DNA of 64,000 bases from positions 620,001 through 684,000 of the forward strand of contig NZ_JAMQJY010000001.1 of NCBI RefSeq assembly GCF_023703085.1, written 5' to 3'. The position numbers and the translations under genes are program-made. A model generated the notes under the pieces. It saw only the letters and a program-made list of their open reading frames with translations, did not search any database and had not been told where the DNA came from. Numbering within the stretch: the first letter of the stretch is position 1; each line of letters starts with the position of its first letter. Below, one piece after another: positions 20,476 through 34,158 of the stretch. The stretch is from Alkalicoccobacillus plakortidis. GTDB taxonomy: Bacteria; Bacillota; Bacilli; Bacillales; Bacillaceae_D.

Positions 20476-23088
20476 TTAATCCTTTAATTGTTGCTGCCAT
20501 TTATTAATAAGCTGCAGTGCCTCAAAAGGAGTCACATGCATAAGCTCTGCTGAGCCAATCGCATCCAATACGTTTTTTTCTTTTTTTGAAGGAGCTTTTT
20601 TTGTTTTGCGAGAATTCTCATCCACTGCAAAAAGCGACAATTGTAGATCTGCCTCTGCTCGTTCATTGGCTGAATTAACATCAGGTTTTTCTACGGTTAC
20701 AGCCATTTCACGACTTGCACCTTCAAGTTCTGCTAATAAGATCTCTGCTCTTTCAGTCACCATATTAGGAAGGCCAGCTAACTCTGCAACATAGATTCCA
20801 TAGCTTCGATCTGCCGGTCCATCAATAACCTTGTGTAAAAAGACAACATGACCGTCTTTCTCTGCTGCTGACACATGAATATTCTTTAGCTGGGTAAGAC
20901 TTTGCTCCATTTTTGTTAATTCATGATAGTGCGTAGAGAACATCGTTTTTGCTTGAATGCGTTCATGAATAAATTCCATGATCGATTGAGCAAGAGCCAT
21001 TCCATCATATGTTGATGTTCCACGTCCAATCTCATCAAGTAAAAGTAAGCTATCTTGCGTTGCTTTTGTCAGCGCATGTTTGGTTTCTAGCATCTCTACC
21101 ATAAATGTACTCTGACCACTTGCCAGATCATCAGCAGCACCAATTCGAGTAAAAATTTGATCAAAAACTGGTAGCTCCGCTTCATCAGCTGGGACATAAC
21201 ATCCAATTTGCGCCATAACGGCCGTCAGAGCTAGCTGTCTCATATACGTACTTTTACCACCCATGTTTGGTCCAGTTAATAGCAGCATACCGCGACTGTC
21301 TCCCATTGACACATCATTTGGCACATATTGTCCACGAGGAATCACTGTCTCAACAACGGGATGACGATTGTTCTGAATTTGAATCTGTCGTTTATCAGAA
21401 AAGGTTGGCTTTACATATCTTCGTTGTTCGCTCACTGATGCAAAGCTTGCATAAACATCTAGCTCACTCATCTGACTAGCCAATTGTTGAAGCTCAGGCA
21501 CATATTGTTTAACCTGATCTCTAATTTGAACAAACAATTCATATTCTAGCTTTTCAGTTTGGTCGTTTGCTTCAAGAATAAGAGCTTCCTTCTCTTTTAA
21601 TTCAGGGGTAACAAAACGCTCGGCATTCGTTAGTGTTTGTTTTCTTTCATAACGCCCCTCTGGAACAGATGCTGCATTGGCACGTGTAATTTCAATATAA
21701 TAACCAAACACTCTGTTGTAGCCAACTTTTAATGTGCGAATGCCAGTGACTTGCCGTTCCTTTGCTTCAAGTTCTGCAATCCACTGCTTACCATTTTTAC
21801 TAGCATCCCGATATGTATCCAAATCCGAATGATAACCTGATTGAATAATACCGCCTTCCTTCAAAGAGATAGGAGCATCCTCAATCAAACTGGTTTCTAA
21901 TAGGTCAGATATCTGTTTATATGTATCTGAATCTTTAAACCATCCTTTAGCAAAGTCTGCTTGCATCGTAGAAAGCAGTTGTACAATAGCAGGGACTCGT
22001 TGAAGCGACTTCTTTAGCTGAACGAGTTCTCTTGGTGATACACTTCCATAGGCGACTCGAGCTGCTAACCTCTCCAAATCGTATACGGCTTTTAGCTCAT
22101 CCCGTAATTCTTCTCGTTCAAAAAACTGCGTTAAGAAGGTATGAACAGCCTGTTGACGCGCGATAATCTTATCTTTTATTACAAGAGGTCGCTCAATCCA
22201 TTGCCTCAGCATTCTTCCACCCATAGCTGTAACCGTTTGGTCTACGATTGACAGGAGTGAACCTTGTTTCCTTTTTTCTCTTAACGTTTCCGTTAACTCT
22301 AGGTTTCGTTTTGTATGCTGATCCATTTTAAGGTAAGAAGTGGAAGCATAATAAGTAGCCGGCTGAAGATGGGCTAAAGATCTTTTTTGAGTGCGAACAA
22401 GATATCGTAACAACCGAGCATATGTAGCTTCAAGCTTTTCCTGCTGCAGGTTCTGATAAACAGACGCATACTCCTTTTGGTCATCTAATTCATCTTCAAA
22501 GGAGATCGTTAGCTGTTTTTCTTGTTCCAAACGATTAAGCAATTCAGAATCACTAGTACTTGCGATGATCACTTCCTTAGACTTAGCAGTAAGGACTTCC
22601 TGAATAGCGTCTTCCAATTCATCGCCAGTAATTGTTACTCTACCTTCACCTGTTGAAAGGTCCGCAAACGCCACCCCATATGAGCCATCCTCACACACAT
22701 GAATCGTTGACAAATAATTGTTTTCTTTCTCCTGAATAAAATGATCACTCATCATTGTTCCAGGGGTTAACAGTTTCACAACTTCGCGCTTTACAACACC
22801 CTTAGCCGTTTCCGGATCTTCTACTTGTTCACAAATTGCTACTTTATAGCCTTTTTCAATTAAGCGAGTCATATAGTTCTCAGCTGAATGATGTGGAACA
22901 CCACACATAGGGATACGTGTTTCACCTTGTCCACGTCCGGTTAACGTTATCTCCAGTTCTCTAGAAGCCTTAACGGCGTCATCATTAAACAGCTCATAAA
23001 AATCACCTAATCGAAAAAATAAAAAAGCATCCTCATACTGTGCTTTTATCTCTAAATATTGCTTCATCATTGGGGTTACTTGTGCCAT
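20476..23088 (-). CDS. mutS: DNA mismatch recognition protein MutS
   Basis: 870 aa. The mismatch-contacting motif FFRLGDFYELF lies near residue 30. The ATPase has Walker A GPNMGGKSTYM and LLLDEIGRGTSTYDGMA, followed by STHYHEL. The C-terminal tail includes a beta-clamp-like segment (DLQLSLF). ATG 23088 (MAQVTPMMKQYL) follows TTGGAGG and is preferred to an upstream in-frame ATG. It heads the mutS-mutL-methyltransferase-miaA-hfq run. Confidence 0.97.
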   Translation of the reverse strand: MAQVTPMMKQYLEIKAQYEDAFLFFRLGDFYELFNDDAVKASRELEITLTGRGQGETRIPMCGVPHHSAENYMTRLIEKGYKVAICEQVEDPETAKGVVKREVVKLLTPGTMMSDHFIQEKENNYLSTIHVCEDGSYGVAFADLSTGEGRVTITGDELEDAIQEVLTAKSKEVIIASTSDSELLNRLEQEKQLTISFEDELDDQKEYASVYQNLQQEKLEATYARLLRYLVRTQKRSLAHLQPATYYASTSYLKMDQHTKRNLELTETLREKRKQGSLLSIVDQTVTAMGGRMLRQWIERPLVIKDKIIARQQAVHTFLTQFFEREELRDELKAVYDLERLAARVAYGSVSPRELVQLKKSLQRVPAIVQLLSTMQADFAKGWFKDSDTYKQISDLLETSLIEDAPISLKEGGIIQSGYHSDLDTYRDASKNGKQWIAELEAKERQVTGIRTLKVGYNRVFGYYIEITRANAASVPEGRYERKQTLTNAERFVTPELKEKEALILEANDQTEKLEYELFVQIRDQVKQYVPELQQLASQMSELDVYASFASVSEQRRYVKPTFSDKRQIQIQNNRHPVVETVIPRGQYVPNDVSMGDSRGMLLLTGPNMGGKSTYMRQLALTAVMAQIGCYVPADEAELPVFDQIFTRIGAADDLASGQSTFMVEMLETKHALTKATQDSLLLLDEIGRGTSTYDGMALAQSIMEFIHERIQAKTMFSTHYHELTKMEQSLTQLKNIHVSAAEKDGHVVFLHKVIDGPADRSYGIYVAELAGLPNMVTERAEILLAELEGASREMAVTVEKPDVNSANERAEADLQLSLFAVDENSRKTKKAPSKKEKNVLDAIGSAELMHVTPFEALQLINKWQQQLKD

Positions 23089-23172
23089 ACCTGCCTCCAA
23101 CCGTTCATTCATTCTTACGTGTATTATAGCATAGAGCAAAGCTTGCCTGCACTTGGAATGCAACAACAAAAA

Positions 23173-23195
23173 AGAGCGGTGCTATGCACCACTCT
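23173..23195 (-). terminator. cotE terminator
   Basis: AGAGTGGTGC and GCACCGCTCT pair around a 3-nt loop and are followed by TTTTTTG on the minus strand. Confidence 0.9.
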
Positions 23196-23202
23196 ATCTC
23201 GC

Positions 23203-23769
23203 TTACTTATCCAATTCTTCGTGCATAAAGTGCGGGTCAAGATTTTCGAGCTCTTCATCCGTCACCTGGTCTACATAATCAGAAATTGGATAATCTTCAA
23301 CGATGCCTTGAGGATTAACGGCAACCGCTACCTTGGTTTCACCAATACACTCCACAATGAATTCTCTTTCTACTTGCACATCAACGGTTGTTCCATTATC
23401 CGACACAGTTGCCTCAAGTGTATTCGGTTGTTGAATGGCACGAGCAACAACATCAAGATCTTCCGTTAACACATTCTCATCTTTCATCGACAGTGGCACA
23501 ATATCCGTATACGTGACTGTTTGCGTGGCAACATCTGTTTTTGTGTTATTCGTATACGAGAACCAGACGTTAATATCATATGATCCTTGAACCTCTACCG
23601 TATCTCCGCGCTTTTCGGCATCATAACTGTGATTTATTATCCAGCATCCTAAGATACTGGTTGGTCTGTGAGTTGGTGTAATATGGTGTGTCGCTTCTGA
23701 AAATTTCCGTCCCTTGCCGCAAACCGCCTTTGTAATAATCTCTCGGTAACTAATTTCATTTTCAGCCAT
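23203..23769 (-). CDS. cotE: Outer spore coat morphogenetic protein CotE
   Basis: 188 aa, near the 181 aa of B. subtilis CotE. It is made in the mother cell and organises the outer coat around the forespore. The sequence starts AENEISYREIITKAVCGKGRKFS, which includes the conserved REIITKAVCGKG. It has acidic stretches and a very acidic C-terminus (DEELENLDPHFMHEELDK). Ribosome site AGGAGG precedes the ATG. As in other Bacillus genomes it sits between ymcA and mutS. Confidence 0.95.
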   Translation of the reverse strand: MAENEISYREIITKAVCGKGRKFSEATHHITPTHRPTSILGCWIINHSYDAEKRGDTVEVQGSYDINVWFSYTNNTKTDVATQTVTYTDIVPLSMKDENVLTEDLDVVARAIQQPNTLEATVSDNGTTVDVQVEREFIVECIGETKVAVAVNPQGIVEDYPISDYVDQVTDEELENLDPHFMHEELDK

Positions 23770-27859: not shown

Positions 27860-29429
27860 TTATTTTGCATACTCAACTGCCCGTGTCTCTCGGATAACCG
27901 TTACCCGAATATGTCCTGGATAGTCAAGTTCGTCTTCAATTCGTTTTGTAATATCTCTCGCTAGTTTATGAGCTAACGTGTCATCAACTAGTTCAGGGCG
28001 TACCATAATCCGAACCTCTCGACCTGCTTGAATGGCGTAGGTTTTCTCTACTCCTTCAAACGACTCTGAGATCTCTTCTAGCTTCTCTAAACGGCGAATA
28101 TACGTCTCAAGTGTCTCTCTTCTTGCTCCTGGGCGTGCTGCTGATAACGCATCCGCTGCAGCAACAAGGGTAGAAATCACCGATGTCGACTCTGTATCAC
28201 CGTGGTGAGATGCAATGGCATTCACAACAACCGGATGCTCTTTGTACTTCGTAGCAAGCTCCACGCCAATTTCAACGTGACTTCCTTCAACCTCATGGTC
28301 AATTGCTTTCCCAATGTCATGAAGAAGACCAGCTCGTTTCGCAAGCTTCACATCTTCACCCAATTCTGCTGCCATTAATCCGCTTAAGTGTGCAACCTCA
28401 ATAGAATGCTTAAGAACATTTTGTCCATAACTTGTGCGGAATTTCAAACGACCTAGAATTTTAATCAAGTCCGGATGCAAACCATGAATACCCATTTCAA
28501 ATGAAGTCTGTTCACCATATTCACGAATCGCTTCATCAACCTCGCGACGGGATTTGTCTACCATTTCCTCAATCCGTGCTGGGTGAATACGACCGTCCTG
28601 CACAAGCTTTTCCAATGCAGTACGAGCAATTTCACGACGGATCGGATCAAATCCAGAGAGAATAACAGCTTCAGGTGTATCATCAATAATTAAATCGATA
28701 CCCGTTAATGTCTCAAGCGCTCTAATATTACGGCCTTCTCGACCAATAATACGACCCTTCATTTCATCGTTAGGAAGATTAACAACTGAAACAGTTGTTT
28801 CAGCCACATGGTCCGCAGAACAACGCTGTACAGCTAAAGAAAGAATTTCTCTCGCTTTTTTATCAGCTTCCTCTTTCGCCTGAGCTAATCGCTCTTTGAT
28901 AAGAAGTGCGGTTTCATGTGCAATCTCTTCTTCGACCTCTGATCGAACAGATAATCTTGCTTCTTCACGACTCATACCGGATATACGCTCCAAGCTCATG
29001 CTGTTGCTTTTTTATGAGCTCATCCACTTTACTGTTCATCTCTTCAATTTGTCGTTGTTTTTTGGTGAGAGATTCCTCCCTTTTCTCCAAAGAATCTTCT
29101 TTTTTATCGAAGGTTTCGCTTTTTCGGTCTAGAATCTCTTCTTTTTGTACCAAACGATGCTCTTGTTTTTGAATCTCATTCCTACGTTCACGAACCTCAC
29201 GTTCTGCCTCTGTACGAAGAGTATGAACTTCATCCTTCGCTTCAAGAATGACTTCTTTCCTGTTCGCTTCCGCATCGCGTTTTGCATCTTCTACAATTTG
29301 ATTCGCAGCATGCTCCGCGCTTACGATTTTCGCTTCTGCAATGGATTTTCGAACAAGATATCCAACAACTGCAGCTAATGCAGAGACAACAAGTATAATG
29401 GGGATGAGAATATACCATGGTATAAACAT
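27860..29429 (-). pseudogene. rny: RNase Y, single-base frame break in the linker
   Basis: RNase Y is a membrane-anchored endoribonuclease that starts much of mRNA decay. All domains are present but in two frames. Residues 1-145 hold the N-terminal helix ([20 protein letters not shown]) and coiled coil. The rest holds the KH domain ([15 protein letters not shown]) and HD domain ([23 protein letters not shown]). The break is at 28990-28995: removing one T from GCTTGG on the coding strand gives [15 protein letters not shown] and a protein of about 522 aa, the normal size. Because rny is important for growth, a sequence error is more likely than a real null. Confidence 0.88.
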
Positions 29430-29588: not shown

Positions 29589-30248
29589 TCAAGCTGAGGA
29601 GATAGGTGTAACTTCACTAATCCCATCACGAATTGACACGTCAAAAGCTCGATCTGCTGACTCTGTTAAATGGTGGTTATGCGTTACCATTATAATCTGT
29701 CGTCCAAACATGGTACTGAGAGATTTTAGAAACTCGTATAAATAATAGACATATTCATTGGATACATGTTTACCAGGCTCATCAAGAATTAGCGGTCCAT
29801 TTACTTTTGGTTGGACTGTTTCCATTAATGCGACACGTAGCGCTAATGTCACAATATCAACCACACCACCACCTCGCGAGTCTTGAGGTTTGGTTTTCAC
29901 TTGTACACCTTCATATTCTGTGGTGACATAAAACTCAGCTACTGTGCGATTTCCATGCTCTTCTAACTCAATCTGAAAAAAGAACAGGGGTCCAAATACA
30001 TACTGGAGTGCATTGGTTACGAGAGTCTCCATTTGTTGTCGAGCTTGTTCTCGTGCATACTCTGCTGATTGTTGTAGTAACACTCTCGCTTTTTCGTATA
30101 CATCAATGGTATCTAGGTATTCATTTAACTTAGCTTCAGCCTGCTCAAGCTGATCTGTTAATACCTGTCTGCGTGCATCGAGTCTAGTCCACGTATCATG
30201 TGCTTGTTTAATAGATTGTTCAAGCTTTGTGATCTCTTCACGACTCAT
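29589..30248 (-). CDS. C-terminal half of a split Rad50/SbcC-like ATPase
   Basis: 219 aa. An N-terminal coiled coil (residues 1-65) leads into the C-terminal lobe of an ABC/SMC-type head: a signature-like SRGGGVVDIVTLALRVAL near 120, Walker B PLILDEP, D-loop-like GKHVS, and H-loop MVTHNHHL. There is no Walker A, so it must pair with the N-terminal half encoded upstream. It overlaps the 84-aa coiled-coil gene by 11 bp. It is the last gene of the nuclease/ATPase operon between recA and rny. Function in DNA-end processing is inferred. Confidence 0.8.
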   Translation of the reverse strand: MSREEITKLEQSIKQAHDTWTRLDARRQVLTDQLEQAEAKLNEYLDTIDVYEKARVLLQQSAEYAREQARQQMETLVTNALQYVFGPLFFFQIELEEHGNRTVAEFYVTTEYEGVQVKTKPQDSRGGGVVDIVTLALRVALMETVQPKVNGPLILDEPGKHVSNEYVYYLYEFLKSLSTMFGRQIIMVTHNHHLTESADRAFDVSIRDGISEVTPISSA

Positions 30249-30492
30249 TTTGAATCAACTCTTTTGGGATTAGTGACCACGTTTCCTCCATCGCTTGCCC
30301 GATCTCTGTTTCAAGTCTCTTAATTTCCGTTTCAAGTCCATCAGGTGCAACACCCAACTCTTCTAATTCTTTTAAGATCCGTTCTTTTTGATTTTCAAGC
30401 TCTTCAAGCTTTGCCTCTGCTCGGTATCTCACATCACGTGCCTGATCAATCGCTTTTTTCATTTTGTTTAAATCCTGTTCCATTTGATTCAT
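30238..30492 (-). CDS. 84-aa coiled-coil protein in the split Rad50-like operon
   Basis: Almost entirely heptad coiled coil, rich in Glu, Lys and Leu (AKLEELENQKERILKELEEL). It corresponds in position to the returning arm of a Rad50/SbcC coil, between the N-terminal half that ends in a zinc-hook-like motif and the C-terminal ATPase lobe. It may be a separate subunit. Alternatively it is the beginning of the next gene, separated by a +1 frame break of the kind seen elsewhere in this sequence, because the next frame starts inside its last codons. Confidence 0.65.
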   Translation of the reverse strand: MNQMEQDLNKMKKAIDQARDVRYRAEAKLEELENQKERILKELEELGVAPDGLETEIKRLETEIGQAMEETWSLIPKELIQNES

Positions 30493-30515
30493 CGCTACCT
30501 ACCCCTTTCAACATT

Positions 30516-31940
30516 TTAGTGTGAATGTGCTTTTTGAATGGTTTGACCACAAGTTGGGCAGATTCCATCCTTTTTCAAAAGCTCTTCATAACGATTTTGA
30601 AGCTCTTCTAATTCCAGCTTCTGTTTATGAACAAACGTCTTACCATCTTGAATTCGTTTAGCTACATCGTTGTAGTTTTGTTGTTTTGATAAAAGCAGTT
30701 GGAACCGTTGATGTGTTTGATCCAAGCCGCTAACCATATCGTTTAACTTCTCTACTCGTAATGTGTTCTCTTTTTGAGTTTGCTGCTCATTTATTTGTTT
30801 GTGCACACTCTGATACTGATCTAACAAAAACACTAATCTCTGTCTTTTTTGCTCAAGTTGTTTAATCGTATCCTGCCAGCTTGTATCCACTTGCCGTACA
30901 AAATTTGTTTGGTCCAACACATGATGTGCCTTCTCTTTTACACGGTTAAGCTTTACATATTGCTCTTGGAGATAGGCTAGCTTTTTTCGCTTATCCTCAA
31001 GTTGCTCAGCCTTACTACGAGAAAGCGCTGCTTGTTCAATGGTTTCGGTTAGCTGTAGTTGTTGTTTTACTGCTTTTGTTTGCTGTGTGTGACTTTGATA
31101 TTGCTCCTGTAACTTCAGTAATGCAGTTTGTCTAAACGTAGCTACTTGCAGTTGCTGAAACAATAACTCCATTTTAGGCAGGTTTGCCACGGCTTCTAAT
31201 TGGAGCGACACATCATGAATGGTTTGTTTATTTGTCAACAAATCTTGCTGTTTAGTTCGAAGACCCTCTAAAGCAGCTTGCTTGGACTTTAACTCTTCCA
31301 ATTGACTAGATGCTTTTTGAAGTCGCTCGCCAGCCGCAACAACATTCTCATAAGGCTCTAAATCCTTTTGCAGCTGTTCTGTTTGCTCTTCACTCCATCG
31401 TTTGCTTTGGTTTAATGAGCTAAGATCTCGTGACGTATCCCTAATTGCGGCATCTAAATAATGCGCCCCACTAATTCGCCCAATCGTTTTTGCCCTCATC
31501 GAGCCTGGTTGCTCTAACATAAACGGACCATCAAGCTGTTGTGCAAGATGAATCGTTAATTCATGATCGCGGTCAATTCGTAATGGTCGCATACCATGAA
31601 GGCTTAATACCTCTTCTGGAACATGCTGTCCAAAGCTTTCAAAGACCTGTTGCTCTTCACCGGCCTTTTTAATCATATAGCGATTTTTGGAAGCCGTTCG
31701 CTCTCGTATAATCTTATCTCCATTTTCAAACTGTACGGTCACACGGACAAAATCACTACCTGCTCGAATAAAATCGGTTCCACGAGGCTGGTTAAACAAT
31801 GCCCAACGAATACCTCGAATCACGGCTGTTTTCCCACTATCAGACTGGCCGATTAGTACATTTAAACCATCTGTAAACGTAAAACGAGAATCCAAATGCG
31901 ACTGGAAGTTCTCAAGGCGTACGTCTGTTATGTTACTCAT
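30516..31940 (-). CDS. N-terminal half of a split Rad50/SbcC-like ATPase with zinc-hook motif
   Basis: 474 aa. The N-terminal lobe of an SMC/Rad50 head has Walker A GQSDSGKT at residues 31-38 and a Q-loop region near QLDGPFMLEQPGS. About 300 residues of coiled coil follow. The protein ends a few residues after CPTCGQ, the CxxC form of the Rad50 zinc hook. Walker B and signature are absent here and lie in the gene at 29589-30248. ATG 31940 has GGGGAGG 8 nt before it and overlaps the nuclease gene by 8 bp, so the two are translationally coupled. Confidence 0.85.
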   Translation of the reverse strand: MSNITDVRLENFQSHLDSRFTFTDGLNVLIGQSDSGKTAVIRGIRWALFNQPRGTDFIRAGSDFVRVTVQFENGDKIIRERTASKNRYMIKKAGEEQQVFESFGQHVPEEVLSLHGMRPLRIDRDHELTIHLAQQLDGPFMLEQPGSMRAKTIGRISGAHYLDAAIRDTSRDLSSLNQSKRWSEEQTEQLQKDLEPYENVVAAGERLQKASSQLEELKSKQAALEGLRTKQQDLLTNKQTIHDVSLQLEAVANLPKMELLFQQLQVATFRQTALLKLQEQYQSHTQQTKAVKQQLQLTETIEQAALSRSKAEQLEDKRKKLAYLQEQYVKLNRVKEKAHHVLDQTNFVRQVDTSWQDTIKQLEQKRQRLVFLLDQYQSVHKQINEQQTQKENTLRVEKLNDMVSGLDQTHQRFQLLLSKQQNYNDVAKRIQDGKTFVHKQKLELEELQNRYEELLKKDGICPTCGQTIQKAHSH

Positions 31941-32922
31941 CCATGTCACCTCCCCAGCTTTCCTCTACCTGGGTCATTCGCCGAAGGGCTTCTTGCTTCA
32001 CTCGATCTTCAACATTTGATAGCGACGCAAGCTCACGAATAATATCGTTCATATGTAGGTTTTTAAAATCACTTTGTTCTCTCACTTGCTGAACAAATGC
32101 ATTTAATTTTTCTTCTTGATTTAATGCCTTTTCCACATATGTTCGATCAAGTACATCCTCCCCTTTTTTAGCGGTTGTTAGCACTTGTTCCCTTAATGTA
32201 ATACCTGATTTTGTAACCTCACCAATAACAACCTTTGGAAGCCTGTTAAGCTCCATCCAATGATTATTAATTCGTGAGATGGCCCCAGGATTACAAATGA
32301 ACTTTCCATCTTGCTCTTTAATGCCAAAGCCTCCATGAAAATGGCCCGTCAAAACGACATCTGCAGGTGTAGTCCAAATATGATCAACAAGTGTATGAGG
32401 AATTCCTTCAGGTAGTGCTTTTTCAACTAACATACTGTGGACAAGATGGATCATATAATCTGCATTATGTTGATTAATTGGATAATAATCTAGCTTCACA
32501 TCACGTTGGTCTAGGTCATAGTGATACGGTTGTCCAGATATCTGAACCTTTACACCATCCTTTTCAATAAGTAACGGCTCATCTGGGTGAATAATCGTCA
32601 TAATTCCAAATGAATCAAGTAGACCAAGCATCGTTCGAGAAATGGTATCAGGATTATGTCCAAACGTATCATGGTTGCCTGAAATCGCATAAATCGGAAT
32701 CTGAACTTCACGAAACAGTTTAGCAAACTGACCAACTACATTTGGCGACAAATCAGGACGATCAAATACATCTCCTCCATGTAGCATGAGATCAACTTGT
32801 TCTTTTTCAGCAATCTGCATGACCTCTGTTAACTTTAGCTTAATCGTTTCAGAGAATGTATCCAGCCTATTTTTTGGTGTTGTTCCACGGATATGCGTAT
32901 CTGTAAAATAAAGAAATTTCAT
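31933..32922 (-). CDS. Mre11/SbcD-like metallophosphoesterase nuclease
   Basis: 329 aa. The full set of metal motifs is present in order: FTDTHIRG (residues 6-13), HGGDVFDRP, SGNHDTFG, LVHSM and TGHFHGGF. These match the DNA exonuclease/endonuclease branch (SbcD, Mre11). A C-terminal helical part may contact the ATPase coil. It begins 62 bp after recA, beyond the recA terminator, and overlaps the Rad50-like gene. The pairing with a split ATPase suggests a DNA-end processing complex. B. subtilis does not have these genes at this locus. Confidence 0.88.
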   Translation of the reverse strand: MKFLYFTDTHIRGTTPKNRLDTFSETIKLKLTEVMQIAEKEQVDLMLHGGDVFDRPDLSPNVVGQFAKLFREVQIPIYAISGNHDTFGHNPDTISRTMLGLLDSFGIMTIIHPDEPLLIEKDGVKVQISGQPYHYDLDQRDVKLDYYPINQHNADYMIHLVHSMLVEKALPEGIPHTLVDHIWTTPADVVLTGHFHGGFGIKEQDGKFICNPGAISRINNHWMELNRLPKVVIGEVTKSGITLREQVLTTAKKGEDVLDRTYVEKALNQEEKLNAFVQQVREQSDFKNLHMNDIIRELASLSNVEDRVKQEALRRMTQVEESWGGDMDE

Positions 32923-32947: not shown

Positions 32948-32974
32948 GAATAAGCACCCATACGGTGCTTATTC
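32948..32974 (-). terminator. recA terminator
   Basis: GAATAAGCACC and GGTGCTTATTC form an 11-bp perfect stem with a short loop, followed by TTTTCAG on the minus strand. The nuclease operon downstream is therefore either read through at low level or has its own promoter. Confidence 0.88.
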
Positions 32975-34144: not shown

Positions 34145-34158
34145 CGAACATTTATTCG
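34145..34158. promoter_or_regulatory. SOS (LexA/DinR) box
   Basis: CGAACATTTATTCG on the plus strand matches the Bacillus SOS box CGAACNNNNGTTCG with one mismatch. It sits 9 bp upstream of the recA -35 element, as expected for LexA repression of recA. Confidence 0.85.

Follow-up and report, generated by a model that had tools for sequence, protein, structure and literature searches.

A predicted Mre11-Rad50-type complex with a Rad50 chain divided at the zinc hook, encoded between recA and rny in Alkalicoccobacillus plakortidis and other Bacillota

A four-gene operon between recA and rny

We analyzed a 64,000-nucleotide stretch of the Alkalicoccobacillus plakortidis genome (contig NZ_JAMQJY010000001.1, positions 620,001 to 684,000 of the forward strand), hereafter called the window. 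At 29589-32922 of its minus strand, between recA and rny, lie the genes for a nuclease, the N-terminal half of a Rad50-like ATPase (N-half), a short coiled coil (coil) and the C-terminal half of the ATPase (C-half), in this order. An earlier note, made from the letters of this DNA, had described a four-gene Mre11/Rad50-like operon here, and all four open reading frames (ORFs) were found. Our favored interpretation, with a probability of roughly 0.8, is that they encode a four-chain Mre11-Rad50-type DNA end-processing complex that stands in for SbcCD in this genome.

31933..32922, minus strand: Mre11/SbcD-like calcineurin-fold nuclease, 329 amino acids (aa); PF00149, E 7.8e-14
30516..31940, minus strand: Rad50 N-half, with N-lobe, helical arm of about 300 residues and CPTC hook; PF13476, E 8.3e-13
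30238..30492, minus strand: coiled-coil subunit, 84 aa; phrog_18563, E 8e-8, and profile of alignment A4
29589..30248, minus strand: Rad50 C-half, 219 aa; a helix (residues 3-85) leads into the C-lobe, which has a variant signature, Walker B and H-loop
32985..34091, minus strand: recA, upstream neighbor; order conserved in 30/30 named records

The N-half may start at an ATG at 31940 (474 aa), which is preceded by a GGAGGTGA-type ribosome site, or at a GTG at 31949 (477 aa), so that it overlaps the nuclease gene by 8 or 17 bp. With the ATG start, the spacings given in the earlier note are correct, namely the 8-bp overlap, a gap of 23 bp between the N-half and the coil, and an 11-bp overlap of the coil with the C-half. 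In Pfam, PHROGs and NCBIfam, the nuclease matches Mre11/SbcD, and the N- and C-half match opposite ends of Rad50. None of the four proteins reached the NCBIfam cut-offs for SbcD and Rad50; against the SbcD profile the nuclease scored 40 bits, with a curated cut-off of 77.65 (canonical SbcCD models TIGR00618/TIGR00619). The split form belongs to the Mre11-Rad50 kind and is not a member of canonical SbcCD. In PHROGs, three separate phage families match the N-half (phrog_16465, E 4.2e-72), the coil and the C-half, an early indication that the split predates this genome.

The nuclease and the two ATPase halves

As the earlier note had proposed, the nuclease has the metal motifs of SbcD/Mre11. It matches the Protein Data Bank (PDB) structure of Mre11, 1ii7 (E 6.3e-7), and D8, H10, the GGD and GNHD motifs, H162, H194 and H196 are invariant in 30 sequences, the window copy included. 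It is thus predicted to be the calcineurin-fold partner expected in the Mre11-Rad50 superfamily. The motifs of the two ATPase halves are as follows.

31827..31850, minus strand: Walker A GQSDSGKT of the N-half; G34, G39 and K40 in 97/97 aligned N-halves
30549..30560, minus strand: hook motif CPTC of the N-half; C464, P465 and C467 in 97/97 aligned N-halves
29856..29876, minus strand: variant ATP-binding cassette (ABC) signature RGGGVVD of the C-half, replacing LSGGE; G126-G128 and D131 in 72/72 aligned relatives
29775..29792, minus strand: Walker B LILDEP of the C-half, then D-loop GKHVS; D156 and E157 in 72/72, S163 in 68/72

The N-half profile matches Rad50 N-lobe and zinc-hook chains of the PDB; its end (profile positions 415-477) falls on residues 4-66 of the Rad50 zinc-hook structure 1l8d (E 9.1e-5). 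The Q-loop residue Q138 is invariant. Only 10 residues follow CPTC before the stop codon, so the description of an N-terminal Rad50-like half with a Walker A motif that ends soon after the hook was accurate. The CPxC motif is present in all 97 aligned N-halves, and two variants, CEAC and CSLC, occur in the wider viral set. A CxxC motif lies within the last 60 residues of 64/64 viral and 19/20 chromosomal N-half ORFs; in the exception, L204, it is 86 residues from the end. From a lobe motif to the hook, the arm, measurable in 65 of 97 aligned rows, spans 301.8 +/- 0.9 residues. AlphaFold2 (AF2) breaks it into helices 162-253, 257-301, 304-347 and 358-460, in a model with a mean predicted local distance difference test score (pLDDT) of 83 that matches 9a9j_A, 1f2u_A and 1ii8_A (chain A or C of Pyrococcus furiosus Rad50 entries). 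A CxxC hook at the end of a predicted long helical arm is another feature shared with the superfamily. In Halalkalibacter-type N-halves (L050, L051, L054-L056, L058, L061, L063, L068), a third Cys, often followed by a His, is found a few residues past CPTCGQ.

The C-half matches the Rad50 C-lobe chain 3qkr_B (E 6.2e-16), and its AF2 model (pLDDT 91.8; predicted template modeling score [pTM] 0.72) matches 9a9j_B, 1f2u_B and 1ii8_B (chain B or D). For both models Rad50 is the best match, and the chains matched by one half are the partners, within the same P. furiosus structures, of those matched by the other. Together with the natural fusions described below, this gives an indirect answer to the question, raised by the earlier note, of whether the C-half can complete the ATP site of the N-half. 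Motifs and models together predict a bipartite ABC head of the Rad50 type, in which one lobe brings Walker A and the Q-loop and the other Walker B and the H-loop (H190, invariant in the alignment). The earlier note had credited the C-half with a signature, Walker B and H-loop. The latter two were borne out, but the signature is not the usual LSGG: its GGG aligns on the SGG of P. furiosus Rad50 (xGGGV versus LSGGE), with Gly at the Ser position in 72/72 sequences. The D-loop aspartate is likewise replaced by serine in 68/72 aligned C-halves. The title of PDB entry 1us8, "The Rad50 signature motif: essential to ATP binding and biological function," makes the signature change notable.

Conservation of the split and of the chromosomal slot

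We compared the locus with 30 named records from Alkalicoccobacillus, Shouchella, Halalkalibacter, Halalkalibacterium, Alkalihalobacillus, Salsuginibacillus and others. In 30/30 the genes run recA, nuclease, N-half, coil, C-half, rny, with the N- and C-half always separate, and most have small nuclease/N-half and coil/C-half overlaps (L064 has a 4-bp gap between the coil and the C-half). With the same order throughout and similar small overlaps, the arrangement is beyond chance. An N-half match was present in 41/41 searched genomes of the family, once with an inner stop; 30 further loci of the family were collected, of which 19 duplicate named ones. Beyond these, the two halves are in separate ORFs in all 84 further loci that have both (64 viral and 20 chromosomal). 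These amount to 80 distinct N+C pairs, the loci being partly redundant (79 distinct C-half ORFs among 87).

The split might be an artifact of annotation, sequencing or decay of an ordinary fused sbcC. The neighboring rny is frame-broken in the window, and 3/30 named records have a frame break in the N-half (L062, L064) or the nuclease (L066). However, separate ORFs with similar small overlaps recur in 30/30 named records, and the halves are separate in 84/84 further loci and in a sequenced phage. A search that scored 7999 candidates, and is incomplete, as it missed known fusions of 776 to 822 aa, gave 119 N-half homologues, all of 527 aa or less and with no single-chain form with arms and hook among them. 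An artifact is so improbable that it can be set aside. A single fused SbcC was not seen at this place in any named relative, and the proposal of a Rad50 chain cut at the hook is upheld, as is the conserved location between recA and rny.

The C-half profile identified 24/397 genomes of the order (12/135 genera), 50/398 of the class (32/146 genera) and 51/259 of the phylum. Of the last, 43 matches, counting the one in this genome, are strong, with E below 1e-20; the eight weak ones, with E above 1e-20, were excluded from the carrier counts. A protein search returned 2457 matches, and the names among the 120 listed include Hazenella, Baia, Thermoflavimicrobium, Tissierellia, Symbiobacteriaceae, Desulfovirgula, Fuchsiella, Frackibacter and one metagenome-assembled genome (MAG) labeled Betaproteobacteria. 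Six weak C-half matches in long frames (L242-L247) appeared by eye to be of RecN or YhaN type and were dropped.

Outside the named records, recA upstream and rny downstream flank the operon in 12/20 further chromosomal loci (in L206, about 3 kb separate recA from the nuclease) and in 6/13 phylum-level split loci, several of whose contigs end too early to judge. Since other families and the phylum sample show the operon in this slot too, it appears to have been there for a long time, and the earlier wording that it was "inserted" between recA and rny does not fit. We also compared pairwise distances among 43 chosen loci with both recA and rny, omitting five named records (four near-duplicates and one broken). 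Nuclease, N-half and C-half distances track one another (r 0.92-0.96) and track those of recA or rny (r 0.83-0.92).

Phages, plasmids, natural fusions and the coil subunit

Among 67 viral contigs with a relative of the C-half, 64 have an N-half and 65 a nuclease. In Bacillus phage vB_BboS-125 (NC_048735.1), the N-half is gp32, the coil gp34 and the C-half gp35. A nuclease frame that has no annotation in the record lies at 22426-23397, followed by a resolvase and a UvsW-like helicase. In the same phage, an AP2-domain gene, gp33 (L069 7416-7988), possibly a homing endonuclease, sits between the N-half and coil genes, a hint of how a gene might have come to be divided close to the hook. Copies also occur on plasmids, among them those of Geobacillus, Paenibacillus and Aneurinibacillus, and the C-half was found in nine plasmid records.

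Natural fusions indicate that the pieces form one ATPase. L070, L215 and ten protein clusters of 776-822 aa, P0127-P0136, have the nuclease joined to the N-half in one chain. Nine of the clusters end 12-22 residues past the CxxC hook. The remaining one, P0134, runs about 135 residues beyond it (tail residues 642-776) and is the sole chain seen that joins the hook to a coil-like sequence. The end of this tail scored 15.6 bits against a distant-coil profile, compared with 9.6 for the best of 1000 shuffles and 5.9 for the best of 116 arm controls; this is one weak match, in a test run after the tail had been noticed. It fits what would be expected if the coil continues the arm after the hook. Clusters P0120-P0125 (667-734 aa), one of which comes from a Candidatus Desulforudis MAG, and L241 instead combine nuclease, N-lobe and C-lobe into a single polypeptide that has neither arms nor CxxC; P0122 also lacks GGGxxD. 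The 702-aa chain of L241 (5652-7760, minus strand), with an Mre11 nuclease and both Rad50 lobes, is by its sequence a natural minimal version of the complex, and the coil profile had no match in the 12 kb around it.

The coil has a conserved LGVxPExL turn, with G47, P50, I57 and L60 invariant among the 19 sequences of alignment A4; the window copy has no Cys. The A4 profile found it in 20/20 chromosomal and 46/67 viral loci. By eye, a coil-like small ORF stands just before the C-half in 21/28 viral loci inspected and was not seen in L176, L177, L179, L181, L187, L188 and L199. Rather than a missing arm segment, the coil could be a kleisin- or Nbs1-like regulator or adaptor that clips the N-half to the C-half: the descending side of the arm is too short even counting the coil, and the LGVxPExL turn is as in a helical hairpin. 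The viral loci speak on both sides, the lack of a profile match in 21/67 favoring an adaptor and the small ORFs seen by eye favoring an arm segment. The alternative is weakened by P0134, with its coil-like tail directly past the hook, and by the armless L241, beside which the coil was not found. We therefore regard an adaptor as unlikely, although it is the strongest of the rivals considered here, and favor the coil as a part of the arm.

Canonical SbcCD in carriers of the operon

The earlier note had suggested a role separate from canonical SbcCD and had asked whether a full-length sbcCD exists elsewhere in the genome, which is 96.9% complete. A search for SbcD in this genome (10/10 candidates scored) returned nothing beyond the nuclease of the window and a phosphoesterase of the membrane type. 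Searches for SbcC found none (14/57 candidates scored, and 2/52 with the order-wide query), and all 20 AAA_23 matches are in frames of 674 aa or less. Across the order, 355/397 genomes have SbcD, comprising 9/24 carriers of the operon and 346/373 non-carriers. The Fisher p of this association, 1.2e-10, is inflated by shared ancestry because one family accounts for 13 of the 15 carriers in the order that lack SbcD. SbcD was found in 3/48 class-level carriers and 1/18 of those tested at the phylum level (out of 43), two samples with no non-carrier baseline. These counts rest on SbcD, since the order-wide SbcC query scored two candidates per genome and finds SbcC of the B. subtilis type weakly if at all. 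As no SbcD was found in this genome or in most tested carriers, the operon probably replaces SbcCD, which is the simplest reading of the sequences and runs counter to the separate role.

Alternatively, the operon might encode a second Mre11-Rad50-like system with a niche of its own, such as fork or spore repair, rather than a replacement for SbcCD. Of the nine order-level carriers that keep SbcD, two have copies of the operon that look mobile, G350 on a contig equal in length to a Jeotgalibacillus plasmid and G415 on a 55-kb contig. The copies of the other seven lie on neither an evident plasmid nor a short contig, which favors a separate niche. That no SbcD was seen in this genome or in 15/24, 45/48 and 17/18 carriers argues the other way, and we judge a separate niche quite unlikely, somewhat more so than the adaptor role of the coil.

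The same note had proposed a DNA-break or anti-phage role. The former is likely; the latter found little backing. A nuclease with a structural maintenance of chromosomes (SMC)-like ATPase could form a Lamassu/Gabija/Wadjet-type defense against phages or plasmids, and PADLOC gave weak matches, to LmuB (44 bits, N-half) and mad3 (36 bits, C-half). With a maximum of 44 bits, however, no strong match to a core protein was obtained, the nuclease matches Mre11, the slot beside recA is conserved, and SbcD is often missing from carriers. Phages themselves carry the system, in one case beside a resolvase and a UvsW-like helicase. Defense is therefore improbable. An end-processing complex in place of SbcCD remains our preferred interpretation.

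Proposed mechanism and relation to known systems

From the sequences we read the family relationship, the complementary lobes, the conserved split, the hook, the gene order, the natural fusions and the lack of a detectable SbcD; from these we infer how the chains would assemble and share zinc, what the nuclease would act on and that it would cooperate with RecA. One N-half and one C-half would pair to form one Rad50 ATPase head. The long helical arm of the N-half would rise to the CPxC hook near its C terminus, and the return path would be supplied by the separate 84-aa coil and the 83-residue N-terminal helix of the C-half. Two heads would dimerize on ATP and, plausibly, two CPxC tips would share a zinc ion at the hook, while the Mre11-like nuclease would dock at the arm roots. 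The complex could then open or trim DNA ends and hairpins ahead of RecA action, substituting for SbcCD in this genome. SbcC of B. subtilis takes part in repairing mitomycin C damage and shows epistasis with RecA (PMC1533848), and a similar role is expected for the split complex.

Several observations weigh against this interpretation. The pTM of the N-half model is low (0.39), and SMC heads score nearly as high as Rad50 for the C-half (5h66_B at rank 3). Because the signature Ser and mostly the D-loop Asp are replaced, ATP use may be unusual. The ascending arm, of about 300 residues, is about twice as long as the coil and the C-half helix together; the simple picture thus works only if the N-half arm folds back or additional copies of the coil are present, and in the AF2 model a hairpin of the two middle arm helices would bring the lengths closer. 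No coil was recognized by the A4 profile in 21/67 viral loci, and 9/24 order-level carriers keep SbcD. A literature search, which covered few subscription papers and was judged by titles and the starts of abstracts, found no experiment on such a split complex, nor a recognizable description of a split Rad50 or SbcC.

Like SbcCD of B. subtilis and E. coli, the system combines an Mre11-like nuclease and a Rad50-like ATPase. In its canonical form, SbcC has LSGG and is a single polypeptide of some 1000 residues (L072, 1030 aa), whereas here three chains (477, 84 and 219 aa) total 780 aa and carry RGGG. Mre11-Rad50 of P. furiosus (1f2u, 1ii8, 9a9j), among the best structural matches, likewise has the head as separate N- and C-lobe chains. 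In the operon, by contrast, the split is natural, lies at the hook and comes with a third, coil chain. In the P. furiosus structures, the chains were presumably separated by design in the laboratory. Mre11/Rad50 fusion proteins (Yoshida 2011, PMC3175470) also join a nuclease to a Rad50-like part; the sections of that paper available describe neither a separate gene for the C-half or the coil nor an operon between recA and rny, and state that one SbcC P-loop segment was not observed in Anaerostipes and Bacillus phage 0305phi8-36. A fusion of nuclease and N-half would be expected to look like this; phage 0305phi8-36 was not among the tblastn matches of a Geobacillus fusion. An SbcC/SbcD pair is listed among the core recombination genes of jumbo phages (PMC7824862) and, in the portion available, is not described as split, although other split phage enzymes are.

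A broader picture is tentative, and we lean slightly against all of it holding at once. It comprises a Rad50 ring built of non-covalent pieces, its arm chains meeting only at the hook and along the coil and able to open at the tip; ATP turnover through a changed trans site, with Gly for the signature Ser and usually Ser for the D-loop Asp; and a system ancient in Bacillota, beside recA, that has supplanted SbcCD in whole families.

The purpose of the long arms and zinc hook of Rad50 has long been debated. Several natural builds of one enzyme, namely split arms with a hook, a nuclease-N-half fusion, one chain of nuclease, N-half and coil-like tail, and an armless, hookless single chain, offer natural tests of that purpose. 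The split complex may also fill a gap, as carriers that score as lacking SbcD probably have it instead. Annotation names seen for the pieces are AAA family ATPase, ATP-binding protein, hypothetical protein and metallophosphoesterase.

Regulation and neighboring features

The earlier note had placed the operon downstream of SOS-controlled recA. Two features bear on this.

34145..34158, plus strand: LexA-box-like site upstream of recA, 1 mismatch; the sole site this close in the window
32948..32974, minus strand: terminator-like hairpin between recA and the nuclease, an 11-bp stem followed by TTTTC

A LexA-box-like site upstream of recA was found in 28/30 named records, while matches to the box across the window are not above chance (13 found, 17.3 expected). 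The gap between recA and the nuclease has no LexA box with up to two mismatches in the window or in 29/30 named records, and it holds the hairpin, which has near-identical counterparts in L039-L041. A permissive scan without a shuffled control found a hairpin in this gap in 22/30 named records, some being poor matches, and more weight is given to the hairpins of the window and of L039-L041; in the window, the terminator scan gave three sites, fewer than shuffles (mean 4.2). SOS control was not supported for the operon, for which it is possible by read-through from recA.

Elsewhere in the genome, the AddB profile gave a weak match only (41.7 bits), in a 970-aa frame (G000:C1:1146215-1148353). 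Downstream of the operon, rny (27860-29429, minus strand) is a single ORF in most named relatives; in the window it consists of two overlapping frames of 154 and 379 aa, the break being a frameshift by mutation or assembly error.

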